From Zygnema cylindricum (Eukaryota > Streptophyta > Zygnematophyceae > Zygnematales > Zygnemataceae), in the NCBI GenBank assembly GCA_037447655.1, contig JBBHKE010001966.1, positions 336,329 through 400,328 on the forward strand: a stretch of DNA of 64,000 bases, written 5' to 3'. Positions 4,276-64,000 of this stretch are shown here, in pieces (position 1 is the first letter of the stretch; each line of letters opens with the position of its first letter). A program made the position numbers and the translations under genes. The notes beneath the pieces are model-generated. The model was not told the origin of the DNA. It saw only the letters and a list, made by a program, of their open reading frames with translations, and made no database searches.

Positions 4276-5052
4276 ATGGACTGGCTGCGGGGCAAGAAGA
4301 GGAGCGGAGGGCAGGGGAGGGGAGTGCAGGGAAGGGAGGAGGAAGAGGACCCGCTCAGAGCCCTGCGCACTATTCCTCGCCGAAATGTGATAACCTGCCG
4401 TGACAAGCTGTGTGAGGAGCCTTGGAAAGTGTACAGGGGGTGGTTAGAGGGCGGCTTTGTGGCTGTCCATGTTTTGGGACGTGACCACAATGTGGATGAC
4501 GTGGCGAGGCAGATGCTGAGTGTCAGCCATTGCCACGTGGCGAAGGTCATAGGCTGGTGTGAAGACAGTGGAAGCATTGTGGTGGAGGGAGGAAAGGGAG
4601 GGAGCTTAAAGGATAGGATAGAGCAAGGTTTGGGTTGTCGGAGTTGTTGTCGGATAGCAAACCAAGTAGCGCTTGCAATGCTGCACCTTAGCAAAAAAGA
4701 TATTGTTATGTCGGTACGTTCTGAAGCAATATTTTTTGATGACAACGAGAACATCAAGGTTGTTCACTTTCCAGTCCTTTCAAAATTCGGTACTAACTGT
4801 CTTACTTTTGGCGAGATGGTTAGAGGAATGCTGACAGGACAATTTGGCAAGGGAGGTGTCACGTCACAAGCTGACCTCAAAGCGAATCTCGACCCTCTTG
4901 TTAAAAAATGGCCGAATGATGTGATTGAAGAACTTACTCGACTCACTGCAAAGTGCTTGGAATTTTTGATGAAGGACCAGACGGATCTGTCCATGGAGAC
5001 GGTGGCAGAAGAGATGGATCGAATCGGTAAACTGGCAGTGGCGGTGGATCAG
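4276..5052 (+). CDS. Copy I exon 1: N1-A pseudokinase module
   Basis: First exon, 259 codons, of a multi-exon pseudokinase protein. The ATG opens a charged leader (MDWLRGKKRSGGQGRG), then EEDPLRALRT. The N-lobe follows: VYRGWLEGGFVAVHVL matches kinase strands beta1-beta3, but the usual VAVK lysine is His. VDDVARQMLSVSHCHVAKVIGWC stands for helix alphaC and beta4; IVVEGGKGGSLKDRI is the hinge and helix alphaD. IANQVALAMLHLSKKDIV then leads to SEAIFFDDNENIKVVHF, where HRD, the catalytic Asn and DFG are all lost. The activation segment is reduced to a few residues before CLTFGEMVRGMLTG. The C-lobe ends in LTRLTAKCLEF and MDRIGKLAVAVDQ. The donor CAG/GTTAGG gives phase 0. The frame is open. A catalytic role is unlikely; a binding or regulatory role is inferred. 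Confidence 0.75.
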
Positions 5053-5898
5053 GTTAGGCATCCTCTCTCTCTCTCTCTCTCTCTTCACCCCCCCCCCTCC
5101 CTTCTAGTGGGTACGAGGTTGTGCCACCTGTGTGGAAAATGACCTGTGGGTACCATCTTCTAGAGAATTTCCTTAAAGTTATATGAGGATAAGAATGCAA
5201 AGAAGAACTGTGACAAATGTTATCCACATTTTAACGGTGTCAACACTACTCGGGAAGCAACTTCTTGGAGGCGGGTGGGGAAGGAGGGGAAAGGCAAAGG
5301 GAATTTTTAGAGTCTGAGCTCCGACAAGCAAGCAGCAGGACCCCGCCCAACCATGCTTTCATCCAAGGGATGACAAAAAATAGAATTTAAAAGACAAAAA
5401 GATAAGCCAAAAAAGGTTGTCAAAAAAATTGTGCAAATATGACGCCATTTGTCAAAATTGATTTTCAATTTCAGCAATAATTCTGAGATATAAGGAATTT
5501 AAAAATTGTTCGATGATGCACTATGACTTCCTTGGAACCTTCTATTTGCTTCTCTCTCTCCCTCTCCCTCTACCTTTCCCTCCCCCTTCCTCTCCCACTC
5601 CCTCTCTACCTCTACCTCTCCCTCTTCCTCCCCCTCTCCTTCCCCCTTCCATTCTCTCTATCTCCCCCTCTCCCCCTCTTCCGCTCCCCTTCTTTCCCCC
5701 TCTCCTCTCCTTCACTGTCTCACTCTCCCTCACTTCCTCACCCCCTCTCCCCCTTCCCTCCCCCCCCTCGTTCCACCTCTCCACCTCCCACTCGCTCACC
5801 CAATACCCCTCGCCCTCTCCCTCTTTCCACATCACTCCCTCCCCCCTTACCCCCTCTCCCCCACATCCCCTCTCCCCCACATCCTCTCTCCCCCTCAG
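5053..5898 (+). other. Copy I intron 1 with a 350-bp pyrimidine tract
   Basis: The first half (5160-5500) is shared with DNA after every A-type module: TATCCACATT, GGGAAGCAACTTCTTGG, AAGCAAGCAGCAGG. From 5535 to 5898 the plus strand is almost pure C/T (CCCTCTCC units) and ends in the acceptor CCCCCTCAG. The tract acts as an extreme polypyrimidine tract for exon 2 and also produces false open frames. Confidence 0.65.
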
Positions 5899-6579
5899 GA
5901 CCCGCTCAGAGCCCTACGCAATCTCTCTCGCGAACAAGTGGTAAACGCCTGCCGTGACAGGCTGTGTGAGGGGACTCGAGAAGTCTACAGGGGGTGGTTA
6001 GAGGGCCACTTTGTGTTCGTCCTTATTTTGGGACCTCCCCACAATGTGGACGACGTGGCACGGCAGATGCTGAGTGTCAGACATCCCCACGTGGCGAAGG
6101 TCATAGGCTGGTGTCGCGACAGTAGAAGCATTGTGGTGGAGGGAGGAGTAAACATAGAGAGACTAATGACACATTGTCCACTACAATGGCACGAATGCTG
6201 TCGGATAGCGCGAGGAGTGGCATCTGCTGCTGCGCATTTGGCCAGTCAAAGTGGTGGTGTGAGAATAGATCCTCAACTTGTATTCATTTCTGAAAACGAC
6301 ATCGTCAAGCTTGTGTACATGCTCGGTAGATCCGGCAGTGCAGCTCGCAGTTTTGGCCGGTTTCTGAAACGATTGGTGCAGGGACATTCCGAACATAGGA
6401 TTGAAGAATTAAAACGTCAAATGACTGCAGATTTTCCGACAGATGAACGATTACCTCCGGCAGCACCTTTTGCACTGAAAGAACTTGAAAAATTAGCCGA
6501 CATGTGTGGAAGCACAGATCCCCCATCGATGGAGGAAATTAAAGCGAAAATTGCCCACATTGTCGAGAAAGGCAAAGAG
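5899..6579 (+). CDS. Copy I exon 2: N1-B pseudokinase module
   Basis: Internal exon of 227 codons, phase 0 at both ends. It begins DPLRALRNLSREQV, the position homologous to residue 27 or so of a first exon, so the charged leader is absent. The N-half is VYRGWLEGHFVFVLIL, then DDVARQMLSVRHPHVAKVIGWC and SIVVEGG. The B-type C-half follows: VNIERLMTHCPLQWHECCRIARGVASAAAHLASQ, then VRIDPQLVFISENDIVKLVYM, which sits where HRD..N..DFG should be. SAARSFGRFLKRLVQG replaces the DVYSFG helix, and LEKLADMCGSTDPPSMEEIKAKI matches the kinase end region (LA..C....RPSM). The 160-180 region (ELKRQMTADFPTDER) differs from other B modules. The donor is GAG/GTCAGA. The frame is open. Confidence 0.72.
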
Positions 6580-6584
6580 GTCAG

Positions 6585-7373: not shown

Positions 7374-8051
7374 AGTGACCTGTTCAGAGCCCTGCGCACT
7401 CTCTCTCCCAAACAAGTGGAAGACGCTTGCCTTGACAAGCTGTTGGAGGCACCTTGGGAAGTGTACACAGGGTGGTTAGAGGGCGACCTTGTGGCTGTCC
7501 ATGTTTTGGGACATGACCACAATGTGGACGACTTGGTTTGGCAGATGCTGAGTGTCAGCCATCCCCACGTGGCGAAGGTCATTGGCTGGTGTCGCGACAG
7601 TAGAAGCATTGTGGTGGAGGGGGGAGTAAACATAGAGAGCCTAATAACACATTATCCACTGCTATGGCACGATTGCTTTCTCATAGCGCGAGCGGTGGCA
7701 TCTGCTGCTGCGTATTTGGCCAGCCAAAGTGGTGGTGTGAGAATAGATCCTAAACTTGTATGGATGTCTGTCAACAACATCGTCAAGGTTGTCTACATCC
7801 CCGGAGCTTCCGTAGTGCACACTGACAGTACAGCTCGCAGTTTTGGAAGCTTTCTGAATTTAGTTCTGAAGGGACCTTTGCAACGTCTCAATGCCATCTC
7901 TGCAGATGATCTCAACGACTATCTCAAGGCAGGATTTCCTGCACTAAAAATACTTGATCAAGTAGCTGATTTGTGTGGAAGCAAAGTTCCCCCATCGATG
8001 GGGGGAATTGAAGCAAAAATCGCCCACTTTGTCAAAAAAAGCAATGAGAAG
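7374..8051 (+). CDS. Copy I exon 3: N1-B pseudokinase module
   Basis: Internal exon, 226 codons, phase 0 to phase 0, open throughout. It starts SDLFRALRTLSPKQVEDACLD, then VYTGWLEGDLVAVHVLGHD; the beta3 lysine is again His. The shared HPHVAKVIGWCRDSRSIVVEGG core follows. The B half reads VNIESLITHYPLLWHDCFLIARAVASAAAYLASQ, then GVRIDPKLVWMSVNNIVKVVYI with no HRD-N-DFG set, TARSFGSFLNLVLKGPLQRLN, SADDLNDYLKAGFPALKILDQVADLC and IEAKIAHFVKK. It follows another B module directly, showing that B exons can be reiterated within one gene. The donor is AAG/GTCAGG, and the next intron carries the TTTTTAAGTGAGG sequence that follows most B exons. Confidence 0.72.
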
Positions 8052-8638: not shown

Positions 8639-9442
8639 ATGGAAGATGGCCTCAGAAGCATCCGTACACTCTCTCAGAAACAAGTGGAGGACGCCAAAGG
8701 TGGCAGTCAAGTTATAAATTGGAGAAATTTATCAGTCTGCAGGGGGACTTTGGAGGGCACACCCGTAGTGGTCCTTGTACTGCAAACCGACTTCGTCGTT
8801 CCGACCCTTGTTTTGGTTCCTGACCACAAAGACGATGGCCCCGACATGGGAGACATGGCTTGGCACATGCAGTGTGACGGCCATCCCCACGTGGCAAAGG
8901 TCATAGGCTGGTGTCGCGACAGTAGAAGCATTGTGGTGGAGGGGGGGGAGGGAGGGAGCTTAAAGGATAGGATCACGGAAGGTTTGGGTTGGCAGGACTG
9001 TTGCCGGATAGCAAATCAAGTAGCACTTGCAGCAATGTACCTTAGAAGACGAGGTATTGTTGGGGTGATAGATTCTAAAGCAATATTTTTTGATGACAGA
9101 GACAACGCCAAGATTATTCACTTTCAAAAACATTCAAGATTCGGTGACGATTGTCTTTCTTTTGGAAAGATGCTACAAGAAATGCTGACGGGAGACTCAC
9201 TAACTGATAGAGGAATGCGCCCATTTTGGCCGGGAGATGTCATGTCACAAGCTGATCTGAAAGTGAAGCTCGATCCTCGCGTGAAAGAATGGCCGAAGGA
9301 TGTGATTGAAGAACTCACTCGACTAACTGCAAGGTGCTTGAAATTATTGCAATTAGGTCTAAAGGACAAAATGGATTTGTCCATGGCGACAGTGGCAGAA
9401 GAGATGGACCGCATCAGTAAACTGGCAGTGACATTGGATCAG
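8639..9442 (+). CDS. Copy I exon 4: N2-A pseudokinase module
   Basis: 268 codons, phase 0 to phase 0, open. It starts MEDGLRSIRTLSQKQVEDA. An earlier AG (TTTGACAG, 8611) would add nine codons, but that site is lost in copies III, IV and VII. The N2 half has CRGTLEGTPVVVLVL and GDMAWHMQCDGHPHVAKVIGWC. The A half reads GGEGGSLKDRITEGLGWQDCCRIANQVALAAMYLRRRGIV, then DSKAIFFDDRDNAKIIHF, which aligns with a catalytic loop plus DFG with every catalytic residue replaced, then CLSFGKMLQEMLTGDS directly, so the activation loop and APE are absent. ADLKVKLDPRVKEWPKDVIEELTRL and MATVAEEMDRISKLAV close the C-lobe. The donor CAG/GTAATG runs into a CT repeat and the N gap, so the next exon of copy I is unknown. 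Confidence 0.72.
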
Positions 9443-9454: not shown

Positions 9455-9486
<32 letters not shown>

Positions 9487-9560
9487 TCTCTCTCTCNNNN
9501 NNNNNNCCCCCCCGAGGGGGCGGGGGGGGGGGGGGGGGGGGGGGGGGGGGAGGGGTGGTT
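9443..9560. other. CT repeat, 10-base assembly gap, poly-G run
   Basis: The (CT)n intron start is followed by ten Ns at 9497-9506, then C7 and a long G run, then poly-A. The gap of arbitrary length is joined to homopolymers, so the physical linkage of copy I to what follows is uncertain. A kinase exon of copy I may be missing here. Confidence 0.85.
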
Positions 9561-10705: not shown

Positions 10706-11497
10706 TTGAAAGACACGTCTCCGTTTGTTGCGCGCGTTTGTCGTTTTGTACAAGGAAGCAGCAAATCCTGCAACTGCAAGTCGGAACTTCGATGTTCCAA
10801 CGTCGAAGTTCAAACGTCGAGATTTTCTATTGCTTCCGTTCCTGGTGGCGTATGTAAAGCCACACGTGTACAATGGTTATTGTCAGATGTGTTTGTTTTT
10901 TTCCCAGCCGTCCGTCACGTCAATATGCTTGAAATCGTGGCGGTGCGCCGAGACATTTTTGTCGGTGCAATCGAATACAGTACAGTACAGTACTCTACGG
11001 TTATGCTGTGAGCGGCAGTTCGAGAGTCAAACTTCCAGAAATATCTTGCTTTGCTGTCGGTGCCTATCAGCGGCTGGATATACACGTGTAGGGCGATATA
11101 CGTCGCATGACTTGTAAATTTTTTCAGCCAATGGTCAAATCTGTTCGCCTATGATTGTGACGCAGCAACTGCACTCGTGTCGGTGAGGTATCGTACGGCA
11201 CAGTTCTGTACCGTCGGATTTGAACAAAAGTTCCCCTCAATCTTTCCAACAATTCCCCGGAAGACCCGGCCTTGTCCGTCTCAATCTCCCTCCCATTCTA
11301 ATGGAGAACCCACTCCCTTTCGCTTTTCCCCCTGATCCTCCGGCCGGCCTTTTCTTCCCCTAAAAAATCTCATCCCTTCTCCCCCCATCTCTTCATCCGT
11401 ATACTTTTCGCACTCTTCCTTTTCCCCTGCCTCCTTCCCTCCCCTCTAGTCTGTGCAGCAGTTAGGATTTCCCCATGCACGGCTCGCCTCGACCGCC
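10706..11497 (+). promoter_or_regulatory. Upstream region of copy II
   Basis: About 790 bp shared with the upstream DNA of the other copies: a region around GCAGCAAATCCTGC and AACTTCGATGTTC, then GGATATACACGTG near 11078, then TCTGTTCGCCTATGATTGT (11139-11157), then TTCCCCTCAATCTTTCC and CCGGCCTTGTCCGTCTC. The near block TTAGGATTTCCCCATGC lies just before the ATG. The GTATAATACGACATG part seen in copies I and IV is missing here, so the promoter may be shortened. Confidence 0.5.
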
Positions 11498-12267
11498 ATG
11501 GACTGGCTGCGAGGCACGAAGAGAAGCGGAGGGCAGGGAAGGAGAGTGGCGGCGAGGGAAGAGGAGGGAAGCCAGAATGACCCGCTCAAAGCCCTGCGGA
11601 ATCTCTCTCGCAAACAAGTGAAAGAGGCCTGCCGTGACAAGCTCTGTGAGGAGCCTTGGGAAGTCTACAGGGGGACTCTAGAGGAGGAATATGTGGTTGT
11701 TTATGTTTTGGGACGTGACCACAATGTGGATGACGTGGCGCGGCAGATGCTGAGTGTCAGCCATCGCCACGTGGCGAAGGTCATAGGCTGGTGTGAAGAC
11801 AGTAGAAGCATTGTGGTGGAGGGGGGGAAGGGAGGGAGCTTGAAGGATAGGATAGAGCAAGGTTTGGGTTGGCAGGATTTTTGTCGGATAGCGAACCAAG
11901 TGGCAATTGCAGCAAGGTATCTTAGAAGACAAGGGATTGTTGGGGTGATAGATTATTTTTTGACGAATACGACAACAGCAAGCTTGTTCACATTCCGAGT
12001 TATTCGCATTTCGGTGAGGAGTGTTTTACTTTTGGCTTGATGCTAAGAGGAATGCTGACTGGACAATTTGGGGAAGGAGATGTCACGTCACAAGCTGATC
12101 TGAAAGCGAATCTCGACCCTCGTGTGAAAGAATGGGCGAATGTTGTGATTGAAGGACTCACTCGATTGGCTGAAAATTGTTTGGAAGATAACTTTATGGA
12201 GCTGTCCATGGAGAAAGTGGCAGAAGATATGGATCGCATCGGTAAACTGGCAGTGAAAATGGATCAG
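11498..12267 (+). pseudogene. Copy II exon 1: N1-A module with 10-base deletion
   Basis: The ATG opens MDWLRGTKRSGGQGRR, then DPLKALRNLSRKQVKEA, VYRGTLEEEYVVVYVL, DDVARQMLSVSHRHVAKVIGWC and the A half up to RRQGIVGVIDY. Other A modules read GATTCTAAAGCAATATTTTT here; at 11954 ten bases of this are missing and the frame shifts. The original frame ends soon after, and the A half continues in another frame from about 11957 (FDEYDNSKLVHIPSYSHFGEE, then LMLRGMLTGQFGEG, DLKANLDPRVKEW) to MDRIGKLAVKMDQ. The splice donor is also broken: CAGCTAAGG where the sister exons have CAG/GTAAGG. Two independent defects make this a likely pseudo-exon in front of a good kinase exon. Confidence 0.7.
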
Positions 12268-13191
12268 CTAAGGCATCCTCTCTCTCGTTCTCTCTCTCTT
12301 CCCCACCCTCTTCCTCCCTTCTAGTGGATTTGTGGTTATGCGACCTGTGTGGAAAATAACCTGTGGGTACTACTTTTAGAGAATTTCCTTAGGAAAAGTT
12401 ATAGGAGGATAGAATGCAAAGCAGAGATGTGAGAAATGCTATCCACATTGTAATGGTGTCAACACTCGTCAAGGAGAAAGTTCTTGGGGGCGGGGGTGAA
12501 GGGAGGGGAGAGGCAAAGGAATTTTTTGAAGTCTGATCTCCGTCAAGCAAGCAGCAGGCCCCCTCCCTCCATGGGAGTGAGAGAGGGCATGAGGAAAATG
12601 GGGAGGGTGCGGGAGAGGTGGAGGCGGAGGGAGGGCGAGAGGGAGATGGGGCGGGAGAGGGTTTTATCACGTTGTCTTATGTCTCATCCTTTTTGTATCT
12701 GGAGCGTTTGCTTGCCTTGTCATGATGACATTTTCTTTATGTCAGGTTTTTCGGAATTTCTCTGTCTTTCTTACCACATTTTGTCATCTTTTATGGCATT
12801 TTATGTCAGATTTGGCTATATCTCATCACGTTTTGTTTGTCTTGTTGCATCATATCACATTATCTCCTCTATTTTTTTCCGGGGACTTAGTGCATCTAGA
12901 GGATAAGGTTCTATTTACACCTTTCTTAATGCTTCTGTTGTCTTTTCTTTCGATACAAGGGAAATGTTTGTGAGAGGATTGTTTTTGTAGATCAGATCAA
13001 ATTTAGTTTGGAGAACAACTTAGTCTGCCCTCGTAAAATGCATATGAATTTGAATTTCCTAATGGTTGATGAATGGGTTCGCAATTTCTGTTGCAATGGG
13101 TTACTCATCTTTGGATGTAATGCGGCCGTCGAAATGCGCTTAAATGATGTATGAGAGTCAAAACTTAAAGCCTGACTCGCCGTTGTTGCAG
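12268..13191 (+). other. Copy II intron before the kinase exon
   Basis: It carries the usual post-A sequence (GTGGAAAATAACC, TATCCACATTGTAATGG, AAGCAAGCAGCAGG), then a G-rich stretch 12580-12660, then AT-rich DNA shared with copy VI upstream of its kinase exon (GAATTTGAATTTCCTAATGG). It ends in a branch-point-like CTGAC and the acceptor TTGTTGCAG. Confidence 0.55.
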
Positions 13192-14346
13192 GCTGGTATC
13201 GACCTTTGGCTCATCACTGCAGAAGAAATTGCAGCCGCAACTTCCAACTTCTCTTCTTCAAACAGGATAGGCAAAGGAGGCTTTGGTGAAGTTTTTAAGG
13301 GGCACCACAAAGGATTGTGTGTAGCCGTGAAAAAGCTCCTCCCTGGAAAAGCAAGTAAGAACTTTAAACAAGAAATCCTGCTTCTCAACAAGCTAAGGCA
13401 CCCGCATATCTTGTCTTTGATTGGTTTTGAGCCCAGTCGACCCTGTCTAGTGAGTGAGTACATCTCAGGAGGCAGCCTTCAAGACTACCTTCAAGAAACG
13501 GGAGGTGCCTTGACTTGGGAGGACAAAGTGCGAATCAGTCGAGAAATGGCGTCTGCTGTGGCATACATGCATAGTCGAGGAGTGGTGCATCGAGACTTGA
13601 AACCGGTGAATGTGCTTCTCGATCACGGTAAAAGAAGCAAAATATGTGATATGGGTTTGGCCAAACTGTGTGAGGGGAACCAGGTAAATATGTCCGGTAT
13701 TCAAGGCACTTACGGCTATATGGATCCTTACACAGTAAATACTGGACTTGTGGGTCCTTATTCGGACACGTATGCACTTGGACTCATTGTTCTGCAACTA
13801 CTAACAGGGATGAAGCATATCCGAGATGTTCATAACTTTTTAGGTCAACATGAAAAGCAAGTTAAGGCTAAATTTCAATCGATAGAAAAATTCACGGAAG
13901 ATAGTACCACTGTCGAGATTTTAATGAAACTAAGTAGCAGCAGCACAGGAAGTGGAGAGTCTGTTGTTGGTCAATCAGGCAGCCGATGGGAGGAGGATCC
14001 TGATGCTTTTAATAATATTGTTGAACAGTTCTGTTTACGATTGGATTCAAGGAGCTCTGTGATGCCCAAAGTGGCTCTAGAAAAGACTGTGGGGTTTCTC
14101 CTCCGATGCTTGGAGCGCCAGCGGGAATACCGGCCCAACCTCGATGACTTCCTGTTTGCCTTAGTAGAACTGGAACGTTTGGCCAGCAAGAAAGACCTTG
14201 AGAAGTCAGACATCTCAACCCATGGAGAATTTGACCCCCTCGTCTCTAGTGAACTTGGAGATCAGCTGGCAGAACAGGAAAAGGAAACTGATGAACAATT
14301 AAAATGTCTGTTGGAGGAATCCTCCAGATTGAAGGCCGAGCTCGAG
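13192..14346 (+). CDS. Copy II kinase exon: Ser/Thr kinase, RLCK-IX/U-box-kinase-like
   Basis: 385 codons, phase 0 at both ends. It starts AGIDLWLITAEEI after TTGTTGCAG; reading on from an upstream ATG at 13144 is possible, but the branch-point-like CTGAC and acceptor fit better. All core kinase elements are present: GKGGFGEVF (27-35), VAVKK with Lys47, Glu61 in alphaC, HPHILSLIGF, HRDLKPVN with Asp135 and Asn140, and Asp153 in DMG in place of DFG. APE is replaced in GYMDPYTVNTGLVGPYSDTYALG. The DxGLAKL and YxDP..TGL..PYSD pattern is like plant U-box/RLCK-IX kinases. After the domain come Ser-rich (SSSSTGSGESVV) and QLAEQEKETDEQLKCL segments leading into a coiled coil. It probably phosphorylates Ser/Thr in the cytoplasm; no membrane segment or signal peptide is visible. 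Confidence 0.88.
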
Positions 14347-14605: not shown

Positions 14606-15073
14606 ATACTGGTTGCTGCACAAGAGAAGCTTCAACAGGATTTGGCGGATATTCAGTTGCGTGCAGAAACTTCAAAAATAAAGGTGTCAAAACTGCAGCA
14701 AGAAATTTCGACAGCAGCGAGCTTACAAAAATTTAAGGACCTCACACGCCTTGCCGATGATCTGAAGCTTTTGGGGCAGGCTATGACGGTTGAGGAAGAG
14801 AATAAGGTAGAACTGCAAATGGAGCTGAATGTACTGGAATTGAAAATGACAGAAAATAAAACAATAGCTGCTGACGTGGACAAAGCATTACAAAAAGTGA
14901 CGGAACCGGTTATGGCACTCTATGAGAGTCTGCGAGCACAGGCTTTGGAAAAACAAAAAGAAATAGAGACGGCATTGAAGGGAAGTGACCTCGAGAAGGT
15001 GATGTCATTAGCGAAGGAGGCCACAACATCAAATGAGAAAGCAAGTAAGCTTCAGAAAAAGTACGGGTTCTGA
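14606..15073 (+). CDS. Copy II last exon: coiled-coil C-terminus
   Basis: 155 codons plus stop, entered in phase 0 after GGCTTTCCAG; the preceding exon ends CTCGAG/GTAAGA, so the join reads through in frame. The sequence is rich in Glu, Lys, Leu and Gln with heptad-like spacing (EKLQQDLADIQLRAETSKIK, KLQQEISTAASLQKFKDL, VELQMELNVLELKM, RAQALEKQKEIETAL), predicting a long coiled coil and self-association. It ends KASKLQKKYGF and TGA. No second copy is found in the window: the kinase of copy VI is cut before it. A possible AATAAA signal lies at 15256. Confidence 0.85.
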   Translation: MLVAAQEKLQQDLADIQLRAETSKIKVSKLQQEISTAASLQKFKDLTRLADDLKLLGQAMTVEEENKVELQMELNVLELKMTENKTIAADVDKALQKVTEPVMALYESLRAQALEKQKEIETALKGSDLEKVMSLAKEATTSNEKASKLQKKYGF

Positions 15074-16364
15074 ATAATCGAGGTTTGGCTGCCATTTACT
15101 GTAACATCGATGGTTTTTATCATTAGTTTTCAATGAAATAATTTTTGAAAACAATTTTTTGCCAGAGTTCGTTCGAAATAATTGCTTGCCCGACCAGGAG
15201 CCTTTTGGCTGGTCAGCTAAAGCTTAGTCCTAGTGCTGCTTTCCCTAAAACGCTTAATAAAAAATGGTCAATAACTTAAATACTTCATTGGCCAAAGTAG
15301 AATTCTGGTATACGTCTATATAGGCAAAAGGTACAAATAAATTGGTAATTTGGTAGAAGTACATTTGTTACATACGTCCCTAAAAGCTAAGGGTACAAAT
15401 AAACGCCTTGATTCCATAAGTTCACATAGGTTGAGAAAAGGATTATCTTATTTTTTGTAGTTCTCCTGTGATGTAGTTAGTAACATCTATGTACAGTATT
15501 TCCAGGCAACATTTTAGAACATTAGTGATGCATAGCCGTCAGTGTCTCTATTTTGTACAAATCTCAACCAAATTTGCCTTAAAAAGGTTTTTGGGGAGAG
15601 GCAAATATTATTTTATCTTATTATTTTTATATTATTATTATTACCTTATTTATATTATTTATTTGTGTTTCGAACAAATGGAAGAAGGGGAGAAGGGAAA
15701 GCCAGGAGAGAAGGGAAACAGAAAATATGTGGTCGGAGAACCTCATATTTTTTTTATTAAAGAAAAAATGTAGCTTTACGCAGTTTTAATCCTCCAAAAA
15801 GGAGAATTGCGAAAGATTTGGTATTGATGCCAAAACCGAATCGATCAGTTGACATTTTCTCGTCTTTTTATTCTTTGAAAAGGTTTTTTTAAATAAATTC
15901 GATGCCTGTCACATTCAATCTGGAGTAGATCCTCTCCTATTTTGGGTTTTTAGGGTTTTTAGGGTTTTTAGAGTTTTTTAGAGTTTTTAGACATAGGATA
16001 AAAAACCAAAAAAAAAAAAAAAAAAAAAAAGAAACAAAAAAAAAACAAAATAAAAACAAAAAAAAAGAGAGGGAAAAAAAAAGTCTGAATACCAGCTCCG
16101 TCCACCCCAAATGAAAGGTGGGGGAGGGAGGCAAACAAAGTGGGGGGTGGGAAGGAGTTGGGAGCGAGGGGTGAGAGCCAACAAAGAGGGGGAGGGGGGA
16201 AGAGGGATATAATCAAAAACAATAAAACTAAAAAGGTTGTAGCTGTTTTTCTTTCCTTGTCTTTTGTTGTTACTTATTTGATTAAAAAACCGTGTTTTAT
16301 ATGACAACGCCCCCCCTAGAAGGGTACATGGAAAGGGGGCTTGGACTCTCTGTTATTTATTTCC
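15074..16364. other. 3' flank of copy II, no further gene
   Basis: It contains an AT-rich region, a TTATTATTATATT stretch (15605-15660), three TTTTTAGGG units at about 15948-15972 that look telomere-like but are too few and one base pair off the plant type, and a long A tract with AAACAAAAAAAA at 16008-16080. No coding region is supported. Confidence 0.5.
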
Positions 16365-18810: not shown

Positions 18811-18919
18811 TGTTGGAGGAATGTCCACTTCGGACTCCACATGTGTGTATCGCAGTAAATGTTGGATCCGCTAGTGCGCCGTTCTGCGCCATTCAGTTTC
18901 ATGCGCTTGCATGCACATC

Positions 18920-49108: not shown

Positions 49109-49147
49109 CATGTTATGTTTGCAGATTTCCACATCGAAGAGGAGGAT
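49109..49147 (+). other. Polypurine tract of copia element 1
   Basis: CACATCGAAGAGGAGGAT lies directly before LTR 2, at the usual place for second-strand priming. The counterpart before LTR 3 is CATCGAAAAGGGGAAT. Confidence 0.6.
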
Positions 49148-52419: not shown

Positions 52420-52459
52420 AATTTTATAATTACAACTTTTCCACATCGAAAAGGGGAAT

Positions 52460-53010
52460 TGTTATGATTTGTTGTGGAAATGAATTGTTACGTCTAGCCT
52501 GTAGTCTCTGTTCCAGTTTTGCTGGTTCGTTTTACTTCAATGTGTGGATTCAGTTTGGCGTCATTTGATTTAAGTTGGCGTCTTATGAGTTGTTAATTGT
52601 TTCGTTTGTTGCATATTGTACGGTACCGTTTATGATGTTATTTAGTGCGACGTAATGTTGTGTTTCGCTTTCAGTGCGCGCCATTCAGTTTCTGCGCACA
52701 CTGTCTGTATTCTGCGCACGTTCGTCTACCTTTGGCACATCTTCATCGTCTGTATTAGGCGCACTTTCGTCTAACTTTGGCACATCTTCATCCGCAGCTT
52801 TATCACTAAGTGTTAGTGGTAGTTTTATGTCGGTTAGGCAGAAGTATTTTTAGTGAGGAGAGTTGTGTAGTTTATTATCATCAAGAAGAGAAGGAGGAAA
52901 ACTATGTTGTAAGAAAGTCTTCAATTAAATATATAATTGATTGGGGAATTCTGTGGGCTCCTATCTGAATGCTTCTACATGCAATTCTGATTAAATATTC
53001 TGTAGTAAAC
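52460..53010 (+). mobile_element. Copia LTR 3, left part
   Basis: TGTTATGATTTGTTGTGG onwards. It matches LTR 1 (GAATTGTTACGTCTAGC, the GGCGCAC.TTCGTCTA duplication) far better than LTR 2. Interrupted at TGTAGTAAAC (53010); the last 18 bases are at 55614-55631. Confidence 0.85.
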
Positions 53011-54066
53011 AGTAGAAATTAATGGTCCATTATTAAGTATTTTCTAGGTCTAAATAGAAAGAAGCCGAGGCAGTCTACCTCTAACTTCTCTCTCCAACTC
53101 TCAAACTTGTCGCAGTCACTGAGAAATTAGAGAGGGAGCTAGAGCCATGGCTTTCTAGGCTATCCAGAGGTTTACGCGAAAAATATATTAGTTAGGGGTT
53201 TTTTACTAGAAGGAATGTGCTGGCCACAGGATTTGATCCTTGTACCTGCCGGCTGGCAGACTGCCGGTAGCCGGTAGTCTTAGCCGTTAACTCTATAACT
53301 AGTGTTACGTACTATATAATTCGATAATTAATTAAACATTATCTGTTTGGATAATTCATTTAATTGTAACTATTTACGGGATACATAGATCCAGTAATAT
53401 AACAGTACGGATTACGGAACGGATAAAAAACCAATACCGCGCATGTATTTCTTTAATGAAACGAATATCGCGCATTTATTTATTACGGCTACGATTAAAT
53501 GTGAATTTAATCGGACAGCCGCAATTAACGCCGCGATCGCGGAATAGGATTTCGGCGGTTTGTGGTCATCGCCACATCTGATGACACGTGGCGGAGTTAC
53601 ATTGGATCGCGGTATCTCCGAGGATTAAAAGAGCGAATCCTGACATACCACGTGTCGACATTTAGGCCATGTCGTATAGTGTCCGTACAGAAAGTACACC
53701 GACAGTTGTACTTTTGTGTACGGAACTGTAATCTAATTGGTTCCGTACATCAGTAGATAGAGTCTTTGAGAGAGATAGGACTTAGAAAAATTAGGAGATA
53801 GGACCCTCTCTCCCACAGAGCTTCTGTACAAAAGGTCAACTTTGACCCTCGATACCTTACTGCTCAGGGGAGCAAATTCAAAGATTCTTTTTGCTATCGA
53901 CTCAGGGGAGTCTTGCCTTCACAGGGGTGAAGTTGGTCAAAGTTATTGTCTGCCAGTTTTTTTGGGTGGCAGTTTTTTTTTGCCGAAACACAAAGGGGTC
54001 AGGGTTATCCTATAGGCTTCTTGGAAGCTGTCCACTCTGAGGACTTATGGAGGTCTCAGAGTTTCA
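53011..54066 (+). mobile_element. Nested LTR retrotransposon: 5' LTR
   Basis: Runs from AGTAGAAATTAATGG to CTCAGAGTTTCA. Its last 360 bp are repeated at 55250-55608, ending in the same GGTCTCAGAGTTTCA. TAAAC is duplicated at 53006-53010 and 55609-55613, proving a single insertion of 53011-55608 into LTR 3. The left terminus AG is unusual for an LTR. At 53220-53310 the minus strand contains a tRNA-like piece with a B-box-like GGATCAAATCC. Confidence 0.75.
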
Positions 54067-54130
54067 AGTTATGGGCCCACCCTCTAGGGTACCAATCTTT
54101 AAAGGAACTGGCTTCATATACTAGGAAAGT

Positions 54131-54724
54131 ATGATGATAAGAGCTTTATGCGAAAAAATGTTTTGGGGGATAGTGAGTGGACGGCTGGGGCGTCCATCAA
54201 GTCTTGGAATTCCTCCAGGGTTTGGAGGAAGCAGATTTACCAAGAAAGAGGATCCACCTTCAACGGAGGAAACAAAAGAAAGAGAGGTGGTGGACAAAGG
54301 AAATGAGAGGGAGGCGACCACACCAATTGCAACTGGTTCGGCATTCATGTCACCTATTCCGAGGAACGAGGAGAATGATACTGAAACCTGGGACTTCAAC
54401 AATATGGCAGCAAAGCACTTCATCCTACGCCATCTCACTCAAGGACTTGCATGTCCTCATTTGCAGGTAGAGAGGGCATCCGATCTTTGGATGGCTCTCA
54501 TAGAGATGTACCGAAGTGGTACGATTCAGCAACAACAGTTGGCTGATCAGAAAGTTAAGGAGTATGTATACGAAGGGGGGAAGATGTTGGATTTTTGCAA
54601 CGAGCTTGCTACAATCTTCATGGAGCTAGAGAGTACGGGAAAAGTTTTTAGTGAAAAAGAAAAGGTTGACTGTTTACTAATGAAGTTACTCGATGAGTTC
54701 GAGAACATAGTCAACCGTGTGTAG
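54131..54724 (+). pseudogene. gag: Nested element: copia-type gag
   Basis: The frame MMIRALCEKMFWGIVSGRLG continues with ETWDFNNMAAKHFILRHLTQ, ERASDLWMALIEMYRSGTIQ, MLDFCNELATIFMELESTGK and KEKVDCLLMKLLDEFENIVN, the UBN2 pattern of copia Gag of a family different from elements 1 and 2. It ends in TAG at 54722. The usual N-terminal start and tryptophan-rich segment seem altered. Confidence 0.75.
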
Positions 54725-54757
54725 GACTTTCCAGACTCAAGGTGGATATAGAACTCA

Positions 54758-55249
54758 GTGGTAAGGATGATTCTCGTTCGGGAGAATACGATTGAGATCC
54801 GAAGGGGAGGAAAGAGTGGCCAAGCGTTGGCAACTGTGACCGATTGGAGGAACAAAGATTCCCGGAAACCGGTTGGAAGCTATGGGGGGAGGGAGCAGAA
54901 AAATCAGATCGACGAGTTCGGACCAAGGGCTCCCAAAGGTTTATGTCATTTTTGTAAGAAACCTGGGCACTGTATGGCAGAGTGCACTATGCTAATCGAG
55001 CTTCAGTTAAAGGAGGGGCAGACCGGTGGCACCCCGAGGGGAAAGAAAAAGGCCCTTGTGACACAGGTACATGAGGCTGAATCCGAGGACGAGGACGATG
55101 AGCTCCTTTTAGATGAGGAGTTGGAGGTGAAAAACGAGGTCGAAATTCCACGAAGGCAGAAATGTGCTTACGGTGGATTGAAAGATGAAGCACGCTATAT
55201 TGTAGATTTAGGTGCCTCCATGCACATGTGTAAGGATAGGCACCTGTTC
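54758..55249 (+). pseudogene. Nested element: Gag zinc knuckle and protease start
   Basis: In a shifted frame, GLCHFCKKPGHCMAECTMLI gives a CX2CX4HX4C knuckle, followed by an acidic linker (EAESEDEDDELLLDEELEV) and YIVDLGASMHMCKDRHLF. The active-site triplet DTGAS is DLGAS (Thr to Leu), which should kill a retropepsin. The frame then runs straight into LTR sequence, so integrase, reverse transcriptase and RNase H are deleted. Confidence 0.75.
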
Positions 55250-55608
55250 CCGGCAGCTGCACTTTTGCGTACGGAACTGTATCCTGATTCGTTCCGTACA
55301 TCAGTAGATAAAGTCTGTGAGAGAGATAGGACTTAGAAAAATTAGGAGATAGGACCCTCTCTCCCAGAGAGCTTCTATACAAAAGGTCAACTTTGACCCT
55401 CCATAACTTACTGCTCAGGGGAGCAAATTCAAAGATTCTTTTTGCTATCGACTCACGGGAGTCTTGCCTTCACAGGGGTAAAGTTGGTCAGAGTTATTGT
55501 CTGCCAAGGTGACAGTTATTTTTGCTGAAACACAAAGGGGTCAGGGTTATCTTAGAGGCTTTTTGGAAGCTGTCCACTCTGAGGACTTATGGAGGTCTCA
55601 GAGTTTCA
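55250..55608 (+). mobile_element. Nested element: partial 3' LTR
   Basis: Matches 53700-54066 (GTACGGAACTGTA, GGACTTAGAAAAATTAGGAG, GGTCAACTTTGACCCTC, GAGGACTTATGGAGGTCTCA). The first 690 bp of the LTR are missing on this side, lost in the same deletion that removed pol. Confidence 0.8.
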
Positions 55609-55613
55609 TAAAC

Positions 55614-55752
55614 CGTGCTCCATTTCTAACACCTATTATACTTAGCCTGTGCGTATAATACGACAAAAAGTACCGCACTTTTTTCCTACGTTGCAAAAGT
55701 GGAAACAACAAAGAGCGGCAGTTAGGGTTTGCCCATCCACTGTTTGCTCGCC
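55614..55752 (+). promoter_or_regulatory. End of LTR 3, then right part of the copy VI promoter
   Basis: CGTGCTCCATTTCTAACA ends LTR 3 at 55631. CCTATTATACTTAGCC, GCGTATAATACGAC, CCGCACTTTTTTCC, TTGCAAAAGTGG and GTTAGGGTTTGCCCATCC follow, the family promoter block. With 42960-43000 this reconstitutes TGCGCCTATTATAC as in copies I and V. Confidence 0.7.
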
Positions 55753-56442
55753 ATGGACTCGCTGCTTGGGATTCAGAATGACCCGCTCAATGACCCGCGC
55801 ACTCTCTCTCGCTGAATAGTGAAAGGCGCCTGTCGTGAGAAGCTGTGTGAGAAGCCATGAAAAGTCTATAGGGGGACTCTAGAGGACGAATATGTGGTTG
55901 TCCATGTTTTAGGACCTGACCACAATGTGGGTGACATGGCGCGGAAGATGTTGGGTGTCGGCCATCGCCACGTGGCAAAGGTCATAGGCTGGTGTCGCAA
56001 CACTAAAAGCATTGTGGTGGAGGGGGGAAAAGACACAAAGAGCCTACTGACATATAAACAACTGTCATGGCACAAATGTTGTCGAAAAGCGTGGGCGGTG
56101 ACATCTGCTGCTGCGTATTCGGCCACCGAAAGAATAGACTCTAGCCTTGTATTTTTTTATGACGACAAAATCTTCAAGCTTGTCTACATCCTTGGTGGAT
56201 CCGCAAATCACACCGATAGTACAGTTTGTAGTTTTGGAAGTTTTCTGAAAGAAGTAGTGAAGGGACCTTTGCAACGTTTGAATGCCATCCCTGAAGATGA
56301 TCTCTACGACTTTATCAAAGCAGGATCTTTTGCCCTGATGGAACTCGATCAATTAGCTGACACATGTGGAAGCACACATCCCCCATCGATGCTGGAAATT
56401 GATGCGAAAGTTGCGCACGTTGTGGAAAATGGCAATGACAAG
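55753..56442 (+). pseudogene. Copy VI exon 1: N1-B module pseudogene
   Basis: The ATG opens MDSLLGIQNDPLNDPRTLSR, followed by TGA, and AAGCCATGAAAAGTC adds another stop. The leader is shortened: the charged GQGRG..EEED part is deleted. From about 55870 the frame is open: EYVVVHVLGPDHNVGDMARK, GHRHVAKVIGWCRNTKSIVV, LSWHKCCRKAWAVTSAAAYS, IFKLVYILGGSANHTDSTVC, SFGSFLKEVVKGPLQRLNAI, EDDLYDFIKAGSFALMELDQ. The donor AAG/GTCAGA is intact. Together with the copia block in the promoter, expression as a normal first exon is very unlikely. Confidence 0.78.
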
Positions 56443-57062: not shown

Positions 57063-57819
57063 ATGGAAGATGGCCTTAGAGGCATCCGTACACTCTCTCG
57101 AAAACAAGTGGTGGATGCGCGACAAGGTAATCATGTTATGTATAGACCCTTTTTAGGCACCATGTGTGTCTGCAAATGGTCGTTTGAGAGCACACCCGTG
57201 GTGGTCCTTCAATCAAAACGATGGTTTGTTGATGGTGTGGGAGACATGGCCTGGTACATGCAGAGCATCAACCATCCCTACGTGTCGAAGGTCATAGGTT
57301 GGTGTCGCGATAGTGGAAGCATTGTGGTGGAAGGGGGGGAGGGAGGGAGATTAAAGGATAGGATACAACAAGGTTTGGGTTGGAAGGATTGTTGTCGCAT
57401 AGCAAACCAAGTAGCGCGTGTCATGCTGCACCTTAGCAAAAAAAAAACTGTTATGTGCACACATTCTGAAGCAATATTTTTTGATGCCAACGACAACAGT
57501 AAGATTATTCACTTTCAAAACCAATCAATATTCGGTGAAGATTTTCTTTCTTTTGGAGTGATGCTGATAAAAATGTTGACGGGAGACTCACAGGGTAGCT
57601 TCTTGTGGGCTTCACAAGATGATCTGAAAGCGAATCTCGACCCTCGTGTGATAGAATGGCCGAAGGATGTGATTGAAAAACTCACTCGACTTGCTGCGAA
57701 GTGTTTCGAATATTGGCCAACAATTTTAAAATCACGGAGAAAAGACGAAACGTATCTTGAAGGAGATAGTGGCAGAAGAGATGGACTACATTAGTAAATT
57801 GGCAGTGGCGATGGATAAG
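57063..57819 (+). pseudogene. Copy VI exon 2: N2-A module, late frameshift
   Basis: Starts MEDGLRGIRTLSRKQVVDAR. An N2 half with a changed middle (GTMCVCKWSFESTPVVVLQS), GDMAWYMQSINHPYVSKVIG and the A half GGEGGRLKDRIQQGLGWKDC, HSEAIFFDANDNSKIIHFQN, FLSFGVMLIKMLTGDS, LKANLDPRVIEWPKDVIEKL. Open until about 57757, where one base shifts the frame: the plain frame ends at a TAG near 57793, while VAEEMDYISKLAVAMDK lies in the next frame up to the donor AAG/GTAAGG. HRD, DFG and APE are absent as in other A modules. Confidence 0.75.
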
Positions 57820-59512
57820 GTAAGGCATCCTCTCTTATTCTTTCTCCATTCCCCTCTCCCCCCCTCCTCCCTTCTTGTGGGTATGTGGTTGTGCCACTTG
57901 TGTGGAAATTGACTTGTTGGAACCTGTCTTGCTGTCTAGTACAAATTTTTTATGTAATACGAGGAGGATAAGAACACAAAGGAGTGTGAGAAATGCTATC
58001 CACATTGTAGTGGTGTTAACACTAGGCAAGAAGCAACTTGTTGGGAGGCGGCGGGAAGGAGGGGAGCGACAATTTTTTTTTTTTAAAATTTGAGCTCTGG
58101 CAAGCAAGCAGCATCCCACCTATGCCACCTCCAAAAAGGATTACAAATAAAAAAATGAAAGGACATAAAAAAAAGCAAAAGAAGTGTCAAAAAAAGTTGT
58201 GCGAGTATAACGCCATTCGTCAAAATTGATTTCTAATTTCAGCAAAAATTCTGAGATGTAAAGGGTTTGAAAATTGTTCCATGATGCACTATAACTCCTT
58301 TGGAACCTTTTGCTCGTTTTTCCCTCTACCTCTCCATCTACCTCTCTCTCTCGTCTTCAACCTCCCCATTCCTCCTACTCTCTATCTTTACCACTCCTTA
58401 CCCTTACGTCTCCCCTTCCCCCTCCTCCTTCCCATACCCCCCTCTCCCCCTCTCCCGCTCCCCTCTTATCCCCCTCTTCTCTCCCTCACTGTCTCACTTT
58501 TCCTCGATCCCTCACCCCCTCTCACCTTCTTCCCCTCCCGCTATCCACTCAAATCTCACTCATCTCACTCTCTTTGACTCCCTTGCCGTTTGCCTCTTCC
58601 TCTCTCTCGTTGATCACTTCCTTCCCCTATTCCCTTTTTCCCCTAGTCACCTCTCCCTTTATCCCCCTCTTCATATCCCACTCAATCCTCCTTACCCCCT
58701 ATCTACCTTTTCTCCTCTACCCCTCTCCCCTCTGCGTTTTTCTCCCTCTCTTTGACTCTCCTCCTCTACCCTACCCCCTCTCCCTCCCTCACCCTTCCTC
58801 TGTGTCTCTCCCTCTCTCCCCCTGTTCCCCTCTCCCCCTCTCTCACGCTCCCCCTCTCCTCTTTACCTCCTCTCTTCCTCTCCGTCTGTTCCCAACTCCC
58901 CCTCTCCCCATCCACCCCCATCGCTCTTCTGTAGTTCGTGAGGAAGGGGTGGGGGAGTGTTTACTTGTCTTTTCATTGCACAACATTGTCTTTTTGTCAG
59001 GTTTTGTTGCATTCTCTTTGACTCTCTAACAACATTTCGCCATGTTTCAATGCAATGCCTCAATTTATCACGTTTTTGTCTTTTGTGCTTTACTTTGTTT
59101 TGTTGCATCATATCATATTATTTCCTCTATTTTCGTCTGAGGATTTCATGCTTTTAGAGGTTAGGGTTCTTATTACACTTTTCATGATGCTTCTGTTGCC
59201 TTTTCTATCAATGCAAGTGAAATGTTTGTGAGAGAATTATTTTTGTTGATAAGATCAAATGGAGTTTGGAGATAAAATTTGTCTGCACTCGTAAAAATCA
59301 TATGAATTTGAATTTCCTAATGGCTGATGAATGTATATCAACTTTAGGCATCCTTCAGAACTTTTTTTCTTCTCTGCGTTCTAACCATTAAAGCTTAGTT
59401 TTCATTTTTTTCTTTCCGTGGGTTTATCATATTTGGATGCAATGACATCATCCGAATGCGTTTAAATGACGTGTGGCGTCAAAACTTAAAACCAGACTCC
59501 CCTTTGTTGCAG
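57820..59512 (+). other. Copy VI intron 2 with 620-bp pyrimidine tract
   Basis: Post-A intron words (GGTTGTGCCACTTGTGTGG, TATCCACATTGTAGTGG), then a C/T tract at 58305-58930, then the AT-rich part shared with copy II (GAATTTGAATTTCCTAATGG, AAACTTAAAACCAGACTC) and the acceptor TTGTTGCAG. Copy I has such a tract before a B exon; here it precedes the kinase exon, so a B exon may have been lost from this copy. Confidence 0.6.
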
Positions 59513-60407
59513 GCTGGTAGCGACATTTGGCTCATCACTACAGAAGAAATTGCAGTCCTAAGTGCCAACTTCTCTTCCTCGAACAGGAAAGGAAAGGGAG
59601 GCTTTGGTGAAGTTTTTAGGGGGCATCACAAGGGATTGGGTGTAGCCGTGAAAAAGCTCCTCCTTGGAAAAGTAAGTAAGAACTTCAAACAAAAAATCCT
59701 ACTTCGCCAAAGGCTCCAACACCCGCATATCTTGTCTTTGATTCGTTTTGAGCCCAGTGGACCGTGTCTAGTGGGTGAGTACATGTCCGCAGGCAGTCTC
59801 CAAAACTACCTTCAAGAAGCGGGAGGTCCCTTGACTTGGGAGGACAAAGTGCGAATCAGTCGAGAAATGGCGTCTGCTGTGGCATACATGCACAGTCAAG
59901 GAGTGGTGCATCGAGACTTGAAACCGATAAATGTTTTTCTTGATTATGGCAAAAGAAACAAAATAAGTGATATGGGTTTGGCCAAACTGGGTGAGGGGAG
60001 CGAGGTTATTATGTCCGGTTTGCAGGGGACTCGCGGCTATATGGATCCTTACACAGTAAAAACTGGACTCGTGAGTCCTTACTCGGACACCTATGCACTT
60101 GGACTCATTATTCTGCAACTCCTCACAGGGATGAAACATATTAGAGATGTTCACAATTTTTTAGGTCAACTTGAAAATCAAGCAAAGTCTAATTTTCAAT
60201 CGACGATAGAATTTTTCATGGAAAATAGTACCACTGTAGAGATTTTGACAAAACAAAGTAGTAGCAGCACAAGAAGTGGAGATTATGTTGTTGCTCCATC
60301 GGGCAGCCGATGGGAGGAGAATCCTGATGCTTTTGATGATATTGCTTGAAATTTCTGTTACGATTGGATCCAAGGAGCTCTGCGATGCCCAAAGTGGCAC
60401 TAAAGAA
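59513..60407 (+). pseudogene. Copy VI kinase exon, truncated
   Basis: AGSDIWLITTEEIAVLSANF, GKGGFGEVFRGHHKGLGVAVKK, HRDLKPINVFLD, ISDMGLAKL and GYMDPYTVKTGLVSPYSDTY closely match copy II. Two changes matter: the alphaC glutamate is lysine (FKQKILL for FKQEILL), removing the salt bridge to the beta3 lysine, and the residue before the glycine loop is Lys. One extra base at about 60340 (ATTGCTTGA for ATTGTTGAA) stops the frame. Homology continues out of frame through GATGCCCAAAGTGGC and ends at 60407, where an LTR begins. The C-lobe end and the coiled-coil exon are missing. Confidence 0.85.
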
Positions 60408-61723
60408 TGTTACGTTATTGTGCGAATCGTCAAAGAGGACGAAATTGCGTGGAGTTTTGATTTGAGGAGTTTTGGCGATTCTGCCAATGAGAGGGGGATT
60501 GTTAGATTCATTGTTAAATCGCGCGAAGTGACGCTTCAATGAACCGCAATGTATTGCGCGTTCACGTACGAAGCGCTCAACTTTGATTCGCATCTATGTA
60601 ATTGTATGGAGATATTTCGTGCGATTACTTCGCACAGGTGGACGTCACTTTCATATCGGGTTGGCGATCGAACCGTTCGACTTCGATTCGCAAGTACACA
60701 TTTGGAGTAATATTGGAGTACATTTAGAGTTTGGTACACCGCCAATCGTTATTAGCGTTGTGTACGCTAATTTCGTCCCGCTTTTTTTATTTTTTATTCT
60801 CAAATAGAATTATCCACACTATTTAAAAAAAACCCTAATTCCTAATTAGAATAGACGATTTCTTCGAAAATTTTCAAATTCCCAATTAGCGTAAACCACG
60901 CTAATTATTCGTATACGCTTAAAAAAACTTATGCGCTAATAACGATTGGCGGTGTACTTTCGAAGTATTGATGTTTTGCGCTGAAACGTACGACTTTGTT
61001 TCGCGTCAATATTTAATGAGTCAGGAAACGAAATGTACGATTTCGTTTCGCGTCACTTTTGTTTCACGTGCAGGTGAGTTATTTCGTGTGCAGGTGCTCA
61101 TTTCGTGCGCACGCACGAAACTTCTCTTTTAGAGTTTCGTGTTTTGGAAGGAGAAGGCGTGTACGCCTTCCTTCGTGGAAGTTTTCTTTCAGTGTGCGCC
61201 AACCAGGAAGGAGATTGGAGTTTACCGCCTTACTAGTTTGCTTGCTTTGCTTTGTAAGCTAGTTAGAGAGGCTATTTAGGCAGCGTAGTTCAGCTGCAAA
61301 ATTATCCTTGTATTAGCTTTGGATCAATTGAAGAGTAAAGATGTAGATCCTTTGTGGTCGATTAAGAGAGAGAGGAAGATCCTTTGTGATCGATTAAGAG
61401 AGAGAGAGAAAGACCTTTTGGTCAATTAAGAGAGTATGATCATTTTTGGTCAATTAAGAGAGTATGATCATTTTTGGTCAATTAAGAGGTGTTGATGATC
61501 CTTAGTGATCCATTTGGAGAAAAGAGGTTTTAAGGAGTATGATCATTCTTGAGTGATCTTTTAAGAGTGAAGAGAGAGAGAGAAGAAGAGAAGAGAAGAG
61601 TTGATGTAAAGAGGCTTCGGCTAGGAACACTTTTAGGCGATTATCTCTTGTTGTTTTTGGGGCGGTGATGTTTTATGTTTTTGAGCATTTAATTTGAGTG
61701 GGTATTTATTTTAAGATCCAACA
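60408..61723 (+). mobile_element. LTR of a third retrotransposon family
   Basis: TGTTACGTTATTGTGCG to AGATCCAACA, 1.3 kb including a nested MITE, followed by TTGGTATCGGAGCTGG (61725-61740), a primer site. 61320-61570 holds tandem GATCATTTTTGGTCAATTAA and AAGAGAGAG units. No second LTR is in the window. Confidence 0.7.
60735..60956. mobile_element. TA-flanked MITE, subfamily Y
   Basis: Nearly identical to the element at 41711 (same TTCGTCCCGC or TCCGTCCCGC start, AAACCCTAATTCC and AATTAGCGTAAACCACG), which suggests recent movement of this family. It lies inside the LTR. Confidence 0.9.
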
Positions 61724-62836: not shown

Positions 62837-63266
62837 GTATCAGCATAACAATGTCTTTTCTTCTAAGGTACCGCGTCGCAAGCGCTACTTGGTTTGCTAT
62901 CCGACAACAATCTTGCCAATCCAAACCTTGCTTTATCTTATCCTTTAAGCTCCCTCCCTTCCCCCCCTCCACCACAATGCTTCTACTGTCCTCACACCAG
63001 CCTATGACCTTCGCCACGTGGGGATGGCTGAGACATAGCATGTACCATGCCATGTCTAGCACACCGATGACATTGTCATTGTGGTCAGATTCCCAACGAA
63101 GGTCAGAGACTCGATTTGGTTTCAGTACAAGGACCACTACGGGTGTGTCATCGAACCTCCCAGTGCATACAGATAATTGTGTCTAATTTATGACTCGAAT
63201 GACACTTTTGGCGTCCTCCACTTGTTAATGAGAGAGTTTACGGATGCCTCTGATGCTATCTTCCAT
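62837..63266 (-). pseudogene. Copy VII exon 2: N2-A module, truncated
   Basis: On the minus strand, after CACTGTGCAG: MEDSIRGIRKLSH, then TAA. The frame is open again further on: VSDLRWESDHNDNVIGVLDM, AWYMLCLSHPHVAKVIGWCE, GGKGGSLKDKIKQGLDWQDC and ATRYLRRKDIVMLI, where it breaks off at 62837. The rest of the A half, including the SEAIFFDD region, is missing, replaced by the LTR element. The stop and the GACAAATTCGTGTGG sequence before the acceptor are shared with copy III. Confidence 0.75.
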
Positions 63267-63844
63267 CTGCACAGTGGTGCCCACCACACGAATTTGTCAG
63301 CTGGGTGGTTGGGTGGCTGGGTGGGGGGTAGAGATAGGGATGAGGGTGGGAAAGAGATGGTGAGAATGAGCCTATCAAGCTTCAATGCAGAGTTACTCTT
63401 GCTCAAACATCTAATTTTATCCTATCGTACCTTTCGTTTTGGATTATAAAATGAACTCATGCATTGAGATCAACCGCATTTGTTTCAAGACCGATCTAAA
63501 TCTGAAATTCCATTTGCAAAGGTTTCCTATACGACAATCACATGTCCTTGTACAAATTTCTACACACAAACTATCAAAACATCCAAAAACTCAGCAAAAA
63601 CAAAAAAAATCCAAGAAAATGAACCCAGTAGATTTGGGAAAACCAAAAAAAAAAAAGTAAAAGGACAACACTGGAAAATAATAGTTTTCGATCTATCTAC
63701 ATGTAATCTTTTGGGTAAAATTGAAAAGAAATTCCTAAAGTTCCTCACTCAAAAAGCAACAAAGTCATCAGACTACTCAGGGTTGAGGTGGTGGTGGGGA
63801 TGGACAGGGGAGAGAGGAGGGTGAGGAGAGAGTGCCCGCCTGAC
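63267..63844 (-). other. Copy VII intron
   Basis: Minus-strand post-B intron very similar to that of copy III (GTCAGGCGGGCACTCTCTCC, TTTTTGAGTGAGG, ACATGTGATTG). It contains no other feature. Confidence 0.6.
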
Positions 63845-64000
63845 CTTGCCATTGCTCTTTTCGACAATGCGGGCGATCATTGCATTAATTTCCTCCATCG
63901 ATAGGACATATTTTCTTCCACACATGTTAGCTAATTGATCGAGTTCCATCAGTGCAGAAGATCCTGCCTTGAAATAGTCGTTGAGCTCATCTGCACAGGT
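63845..64000 (-). pseudogene. Copy VII exon 1, 3' end of an N1-B module (cut by window end)
   Basis: The minus strand reads CADELNDYFKAGSSALMELD, then QLANMCGRKYVLSMEEINAM and IARIVEKSNGK up to the donor AAG/GTCAGG. This part is open, but the following exon is broken, so the gene is counted as a pseudogene. The N-half and start lie beyond the window. Confidence 0.7.

Follow-up and report, generated by a model that had tools for sequence, protein, structure and literature searches.

A tandem array of dead-kinase exons in variable number, with linked kinase exons, in Zygnema cylindricum

A 64,000-nucleotide stretch of the Zygnema cylindricum genome (GenBank assembly GCA_037447655.1, contig JBBHKE010001966.1, positions 336,329 to 400,328 of the forward strand; here called the window and numbered from its first letter) carries a cluster of genes with exons that each resemble an entire kinase domain. 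What do these exons encode, are they joined to the kinase exons that lie among them, and are the genes still in use? The cluster is a real and unusual gene family in which dead-kinase exons are arranged in tandem.

With three modules as tblastn queries, 14 modules were located, spread over seven units. The array is thus real, and it is slightly larger than the original prediction of thirteen modules in at least seven copies. A unit has between one and four such exons, each about 230-270 codons long and belonging to type A or type B; one exon per module and a variable module number had been proposed and are what is found. In addition, tblastn and a blastn comparison of the window with itself revealed a fused remnant (unit 0, 2489-2785, plus strand), made up of a 5' leader region and the 3' portion of a B module; within the window it matches 31354-31455 and 31967-32157. 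The self-comparison also identified a common 5' region in units I to VI. Position 4276, originally given as the start of the array, lies too far downstream: the first common 5' region begins at 3898 and the remnant at 2489.

In the Pfam search of eight module open reading frames (ORFs), the family PK_Tyr_Ser-Thr was matched at the curated cut-off by four (A1, with 28.9 bits, A2, A3, and A5) and below it by B4 and B5. In an alignment of 12 members (10 modules plus the kinase exons K1 and K2, described below), nine matched this family at E ≤ 0.1, hence at least seven modules. At E ≤ 1, a profile built from nine modules matched 236 distinct PDB sequences, of which the best 60 are all kinases. Because of these Pfam and PDB matches, the kinase similarity of the modules is not attributed to chance. 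Structure prediction followed by Foldseek gave a two-lobe, kinase-like fold (models of A2 and B2). The maize pseudokinase GRMZM2G135359 (PDB 6cpy) is the top match of the A2 model and the second match of the B2 model; it differs from the array in that identity is 17-18% over one domain and its matched chain has no repeated modules. No module relatives were confirmed by tblastn among 26 pattern matches in GTDB and 34 in IMG/VR, prokaryotic and viral collections with little bearing on plants.

The residues needed for catalysis have been lost. In all 12 modules scanned for it, the beta-3 Lys has given way to His, Leu or Tyr; A4 and B7 do not extend to this site and were left out. None of the ten modules scanned for HRD has it, and all ten scanned for the DFG Asp have His, Gln or Tyr instead. 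Seven of the ten retain an Asp near the HRD position ([RV]ID), in an ambiguous register. Counted by eye in the 12-member alignment, the distance between DMG and helix F is about 38 residues in K1 and about 10 in B2, so that the activation segment of B2 is essentially missing. The modules differ from the domains of IRAK4/Pelle and plant receptor-like kinases (RLKs) in that their catalytic residues and most of their activation segment are gone. Judged from sequence and predicted structure, the modules are whole-domain, catalytically dead kinases, in agreement with the original prediction. Since they would not transfer phosphate by the usual mechanism, their function, if any, is most likely binding.

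Six open modules are kept in units I and IV, which, like all units except VII, are on the plus strand. Unit I (common 5' region 3898-4275, with blastn matches to 31073-31764 at 82% and to 38366-39056 at 75%) has the order A1, B1, B2, A2. The first exon, A1 (4276-5052), carries an MDWL leader; it is followed by the internal exons B1 (5899-6579; acceptor CAG^GAC, the caret marking the exon boundary), B2 (7374-8051; acceptor TTCAG^AGT, donor AAG^GTCAGG) and A2 (8639-9442; acceptor GTGCAG^ATG, donor CAG^GTAATG). An assembly gap of 10 N (9497-9506) lies directly 3' of this last module, with a long G run alongside (region 9497-9555). Unit IV (5' region 30610-31441) consists of B4 as first exon (31442-32200; donor AAG^GTAAGG) and A5 (32752-33510; acceptor GTGCAG^TTG, donor CAG^GTAACG). 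Unit V (5' region 37981-38716) has B5 alone (38717-39478), open up to a TAG one codon 5' of its donor, AAG^GTCAGG.

Four of the seven units (II, III, VI, and VII) are clearly broken, and the many decaying copies noted originally are thus evident. Unit II (5' region 10785-11497, with blastn matches to 30639-31277, 17391-17977 and 37981-38529) has the order A3, K1 and a further exon; its first exon A3 (11498-12267) has a 10-nt deletion near 11953 and the donor dinucleotide CT for GT. Unit III (5' region 17354-18089) consists of B3 and A4 (20707-21512), both decayed; B3 has a TAG at codon 3 and frame changes, and is split into 18090-18685 and 19934-20087 (donor AAG^GTCAGG). The insertion that splits it (18686-19933) has internal tandem copies, 18803-19071/19106-19379 (85%) and 19422-19650/19706-19933 (90%). 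Unit VI has the order B6 (about 55774-56442, with stops in the N-terminal part), A6 (57063-57819, with decay near the 3' end) and K2, all decayed, and its 5' region (42483-43006) is separated from the gene by long terminal repeat (LTR) elements (about 43007-55631). This block (43003-55632), between the 5' region and B6, holds two or more copia-like elements that are nested or lie side by side (LTRs at 43003-43557 and 52459-53013, 95%), and a further element with repeats at 53699-54066 and 55250-55608 (91%). Copia-like ORFs, together with the RLK-type kinase described below, give the window a plant-like character. Unit VII, on the minus strand and truncated by the window edge, comprises the C-terminal part of B7 (63830-63994), which the edge cuts, and the decayed A7 (62838-63266).

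Are the modules of a unit joined to each other? A-module acceptors read (G/C/A)TGCAG^(A/T)TGGAAGAT in all five cases checked. Of five A-module donors, four read CAG^GTNANG, the exception being that of unit II. Of six B-module donors, five read AAG^GT(A/C)AG, and that of B1 reads GAG^GTCAGA. According to the translations, all module splice sites are in phase 0, and gain or loss of a module therefore leaves the frame intact. The conserved phase-0 sites support the joining of modules to one another, which would give proteins with two or more kinase-like domains. It was also considered whether the A modules are followed by a short, conserved last exon with a phase-0 start after CTTCTAG, and this was rejected: unit III has a stop at that place, and the AG is missing in units IV and VI.

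The two kinase exons are of another kind. K1 (13144-14346; Pfam Pkinase, 1.5e-43; donor GAG^GTAAGA) keeps VAVKK, the alpha-C Glu (KQE), HRDLKPVN and DMG, and its best PDB matches are plant RLKs and IRAK4; by these motifs, it is an RLK/Pelle-type kinase with the residues of active kinases. K2 (59456-60436) retains Lys, HRD and DMG, as had been claimed for both exons, and only K1 is intact: in K2 the alpha-C Glu is changed to Lys, and a frameshift and stops are present. Between the two, dN (nonsynonymous divergence) is 0.109 and dS (synonymous divergence) 0.244. K1 is followed by an exon ending in TGA (14606-15073), for which a coiled coil had been predicted. It has a helix-rich look, but 35 of 500 shuffles did as well in a heptad test, so that a coiled coil is not established. 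A short run of TTTAGGG-like, telomere-type repeats (15940-15991) lies 3' of this kinase gene. Descent of the modules from the kinase exon of the window is not supported, as profile scores are no better than for other kinases. The profile of all nine modules gives 22 bits for K1 and 16 for K2, and the A-only and B-only profiles give 27 and 21 for K1; a closely similar profile gives 31 for B-raf and 26-27 for IRAK4 and RLKs. Modules and kinase have similar exon starts (LSxKQV and ITAEEI motifs), which hints at common exon ancestry only.

The layout of modules followed by a kinase had been likened to that of plant tandem kinase-pseudokinase proteins, in which both parts form one protein, the pseudokinase sensing and the kinase signalling. 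Like traits are described for this group (WTK1/Yr15, RPG1, Pm24 and Sr62), namely tandem kinase-like domains, pseudokinases without catalytic residues, RLK/Pelle descent and tandem duplication as one origin (PMC6170490, PMC8956640). The plant tandem kinases described to date contain two or three kinase domains (PMC8956640). The array differs in several ways: the number of pseudokinase modules per unit ranges from one to four, every module is one phase-0 exon, the activation segment is nearly absent, most units have no kinase exon, and module-kinase fusion is only putative. Pfam families other than kinases were not matched above the cut-off by the eight module ORFs or by the exon after K1, the additional helix-rich exon of the kinase.

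Two observations favour such a fusion. A phase-0 acceptor-like site, TTGTTGCAG^GCT, is identical in K1 (CAG^GCT at 13191/13192) and K2, and could be met by the phase-0 module donors. Also, module(s) precede the kinase in two units, with a homologous interval between them (12701-13075 vs. 58954-59333, 77%). However, both kinases have an ATG upstream of this site, at 13134 in K1 and 59456 in K2; in K1 the first ATG is put out of frame by a one-base difference, and the frame is regained at a second ATG (13144). From the ATG to the acceptor-like site, and outside one indel, all seven substitutions between K1 and K2 are at third codon positions, which makes this stretch look coding, although this comparison was devised after the alignment had been inspected. 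Over the next 600 nt, the differences by codon position are 24, 17 and 30. A conserved frame 5' of the ATG was considered and rejected, the differences over 93 nt being 6, 2 and 4 with no third-position bias. There is no AG closer to the ATG than 112 nt upstream in K1 and 59 nt in K2. Because the coding signal starts at an ATG that has no nearby acceptor, the kinase may be a separate, linked gene, and we regard this as moderate evidence that it begins a gene of its own. Moreover, open modules and an intact kinase do not occur together in any unit of the window: the one intact kinase lies in unit II, where the module is broken and its donor lost, and units I, III, IV and V gave no kinase exon in a tblastn search with K1 (E 1), although unit I adjoins the assembly gap. 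The originally proposed gene of modules followed by a kinase is therefore not upheld so far, and we consider fusion into one protein a rather doubtful, if possible, arrangement.

The modules appear to have been reshuffled. A1 and A3 are chimeras, A1 with a B-type N-lobe and an A-type C-lobe. On the N-side, the synonymous difference of A1 and A3 is 0.19 and 0.23 to B, and 0.56 and 0.55 to A; on the C-side, it is 0.24 and 0.39 to A, and 0.63 and 0.53 to B (for A3, only the portion 5' of its deletion was used). The chimeras change type within a shared 23-codon beta4-beta5 block, GHPHVAKVIGWCRDSRSIVVEGG. In this block, the A-vs-B synonymous difference (pS) is 0.22, compared to a sliding-window median of 0.58, and the lowest value of all windows, 0.15, is reached in those starting just upstream of this block. 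Its value is likewise low when B modules are compared with one another (0.08 vs. 0.23-0.26), and less reduced in comparisons among A modules (0.20 vs. 0.24-0.37). This fits conversion or crossing-over at the block; constraint at the DNA level could also account for it.

The explanation that we favour, and hold to be about evenly balanced between right and wrong, is a tandem array of multi-exon genes in which each exon encodes one complete, dead kinase domain of RLK/IRAK-Pelle type and which would work as follows. The proteins would be intracellular chains of between one and four pseudokinase domains. They would function non-catalytically, serving as scaffolds or decoys to which the partners of RLK/Pelle kinases bind. 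Their signalling partner would be the linked kinase, encoded by a neighbouring gene and acting in trans or, with lower likelihood, present as a fused C-terminal domain. Module shuffling together with near-neutral or diversifying change would shift binding specificity. Pathogen recognition would be the most likely reason for the fast turnover. ZRK/ZED1 proteins, like the array modules, are RLK-derived pseudokinases; they act as adaptors or decoys and their genes are clustered, but they are single-domain proteins working with the nucleotide-binding leucine-rich repeat protein ZAR1, and we know of no multi-module genes among them. For kinase fusion proteins of plants, it has been proposed that the decoy is a pseudokinase or another fused domain while the active kinase signals (PMC8956640, PMC10260397), and pseudokinases are mentioned as effector baits (PMC6170490). 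By analogy, the variable strings of the array would capture partners of RLK/Pelle kinases, and the linked kinase would pass on the signal in trans or in cis. Streptophyte algae can hold many RLKs, about 435 in Chara (PMC10868138). The open-access literature searched held no tandem kinase paper on charophytes and, judged by titles and the openings of abstracts, no description of such a multi-pseudokinase array, which is no proof of absence.

Several observations weigh against this explanation. B1 and B2 had no kinase match in the Pfam search, and the A2 model is weak (pLDDT, the predicted local distance difference test score, is 59). The module proteins are likely to be intracellular, but this is not proven because A2, alone among eight proteins tested, contains a hydrophobic 19-mer (mean 2.11) that starts at residue 43, in the predicted beta-3 strand, and extends into a low-confidence loop. 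Nothing in the window ties the genes to immunity. The dN/dS among module pairs ranges from 0.53 to 1.55, introns (78-83%) and exons (77-88%) are alike in identity, and to the four broken units a fifth, unit V, is added by the stop at its module end.

Such dN/dS values and the likeness of introns and exons are also expected for genes that are losing function, and the main sober alternative is that a former RLK-derived gene was tandemly duplicated and that most or all copies are now functionless. The stops and frameshifts, the LTR insertion upstream of unit VI and the lost donor of unit II agree with this. On the other hand, each of the six open modules had only a 0.01-0.08 chance of remaining open at its divergence in a neutral simulation, gap lengths are a multiple of three in 32 of 74 cases in exons and 18 of 85 in introns (from overlapping pairs, which are not independent), and dN/dS is below 1 at bootstrap P < 0.05 in two of the eight open-module pairs, A1-A2 (P 0.013) and A2-A5 (P 0.043), though not significantly so in the other six. 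We lean against a wholly or mostly dying cluster. That the modules are regulatory pseudokinases of their own linked kinase, on the model of JAK JH2-like control, with a role in development or stress signalling and no part in immunity, agrees with the physical linkage of an RLK/Pelle kinase exon in two units but leaves module shuffling and module-only units unexplained, and we consider it improbable.

Other repeats were noted in the window. AT-rich arrays with a period near 31 bases around TTAGTACAGTTATTAGTATGTATAA are found at 22384-23116 and 27607-29394, about 5 kb apart and partly inverted. A direct repeat of about 390 bases (24039-24425 and 29864-30245, 87% identity) flanks part of this AT-rich region, perhaps as a pair of terminal repeats. 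Outside the module genes, a dispersed repeat about 225 bases long (86-96% identity) occurs at 3528-3752, 41711-41935 and 60734-60958.

A bolder reading would make the array a recognition family in the role that leucine-rich repeats fill elsewhere, with dead-kinase strings that arose by whole-domain exon duplication, are reshuffled at a homogenised beta4-beta5 cassette, and report, gene by gene, to a linked RLK/Pelle kinase in trans; this we consider a long shot. A fast-changing family of dead-kinase exons could be raw material for recognition or regulation. Genes with a variable number of dead-kinase domains, built from self-contained exons of compatible phase with a visible point of exchange, would reveal the way in which such architectures originate and change, and the array would allow a direct test of whether or not pseudokinase domains serve as variable decoys.
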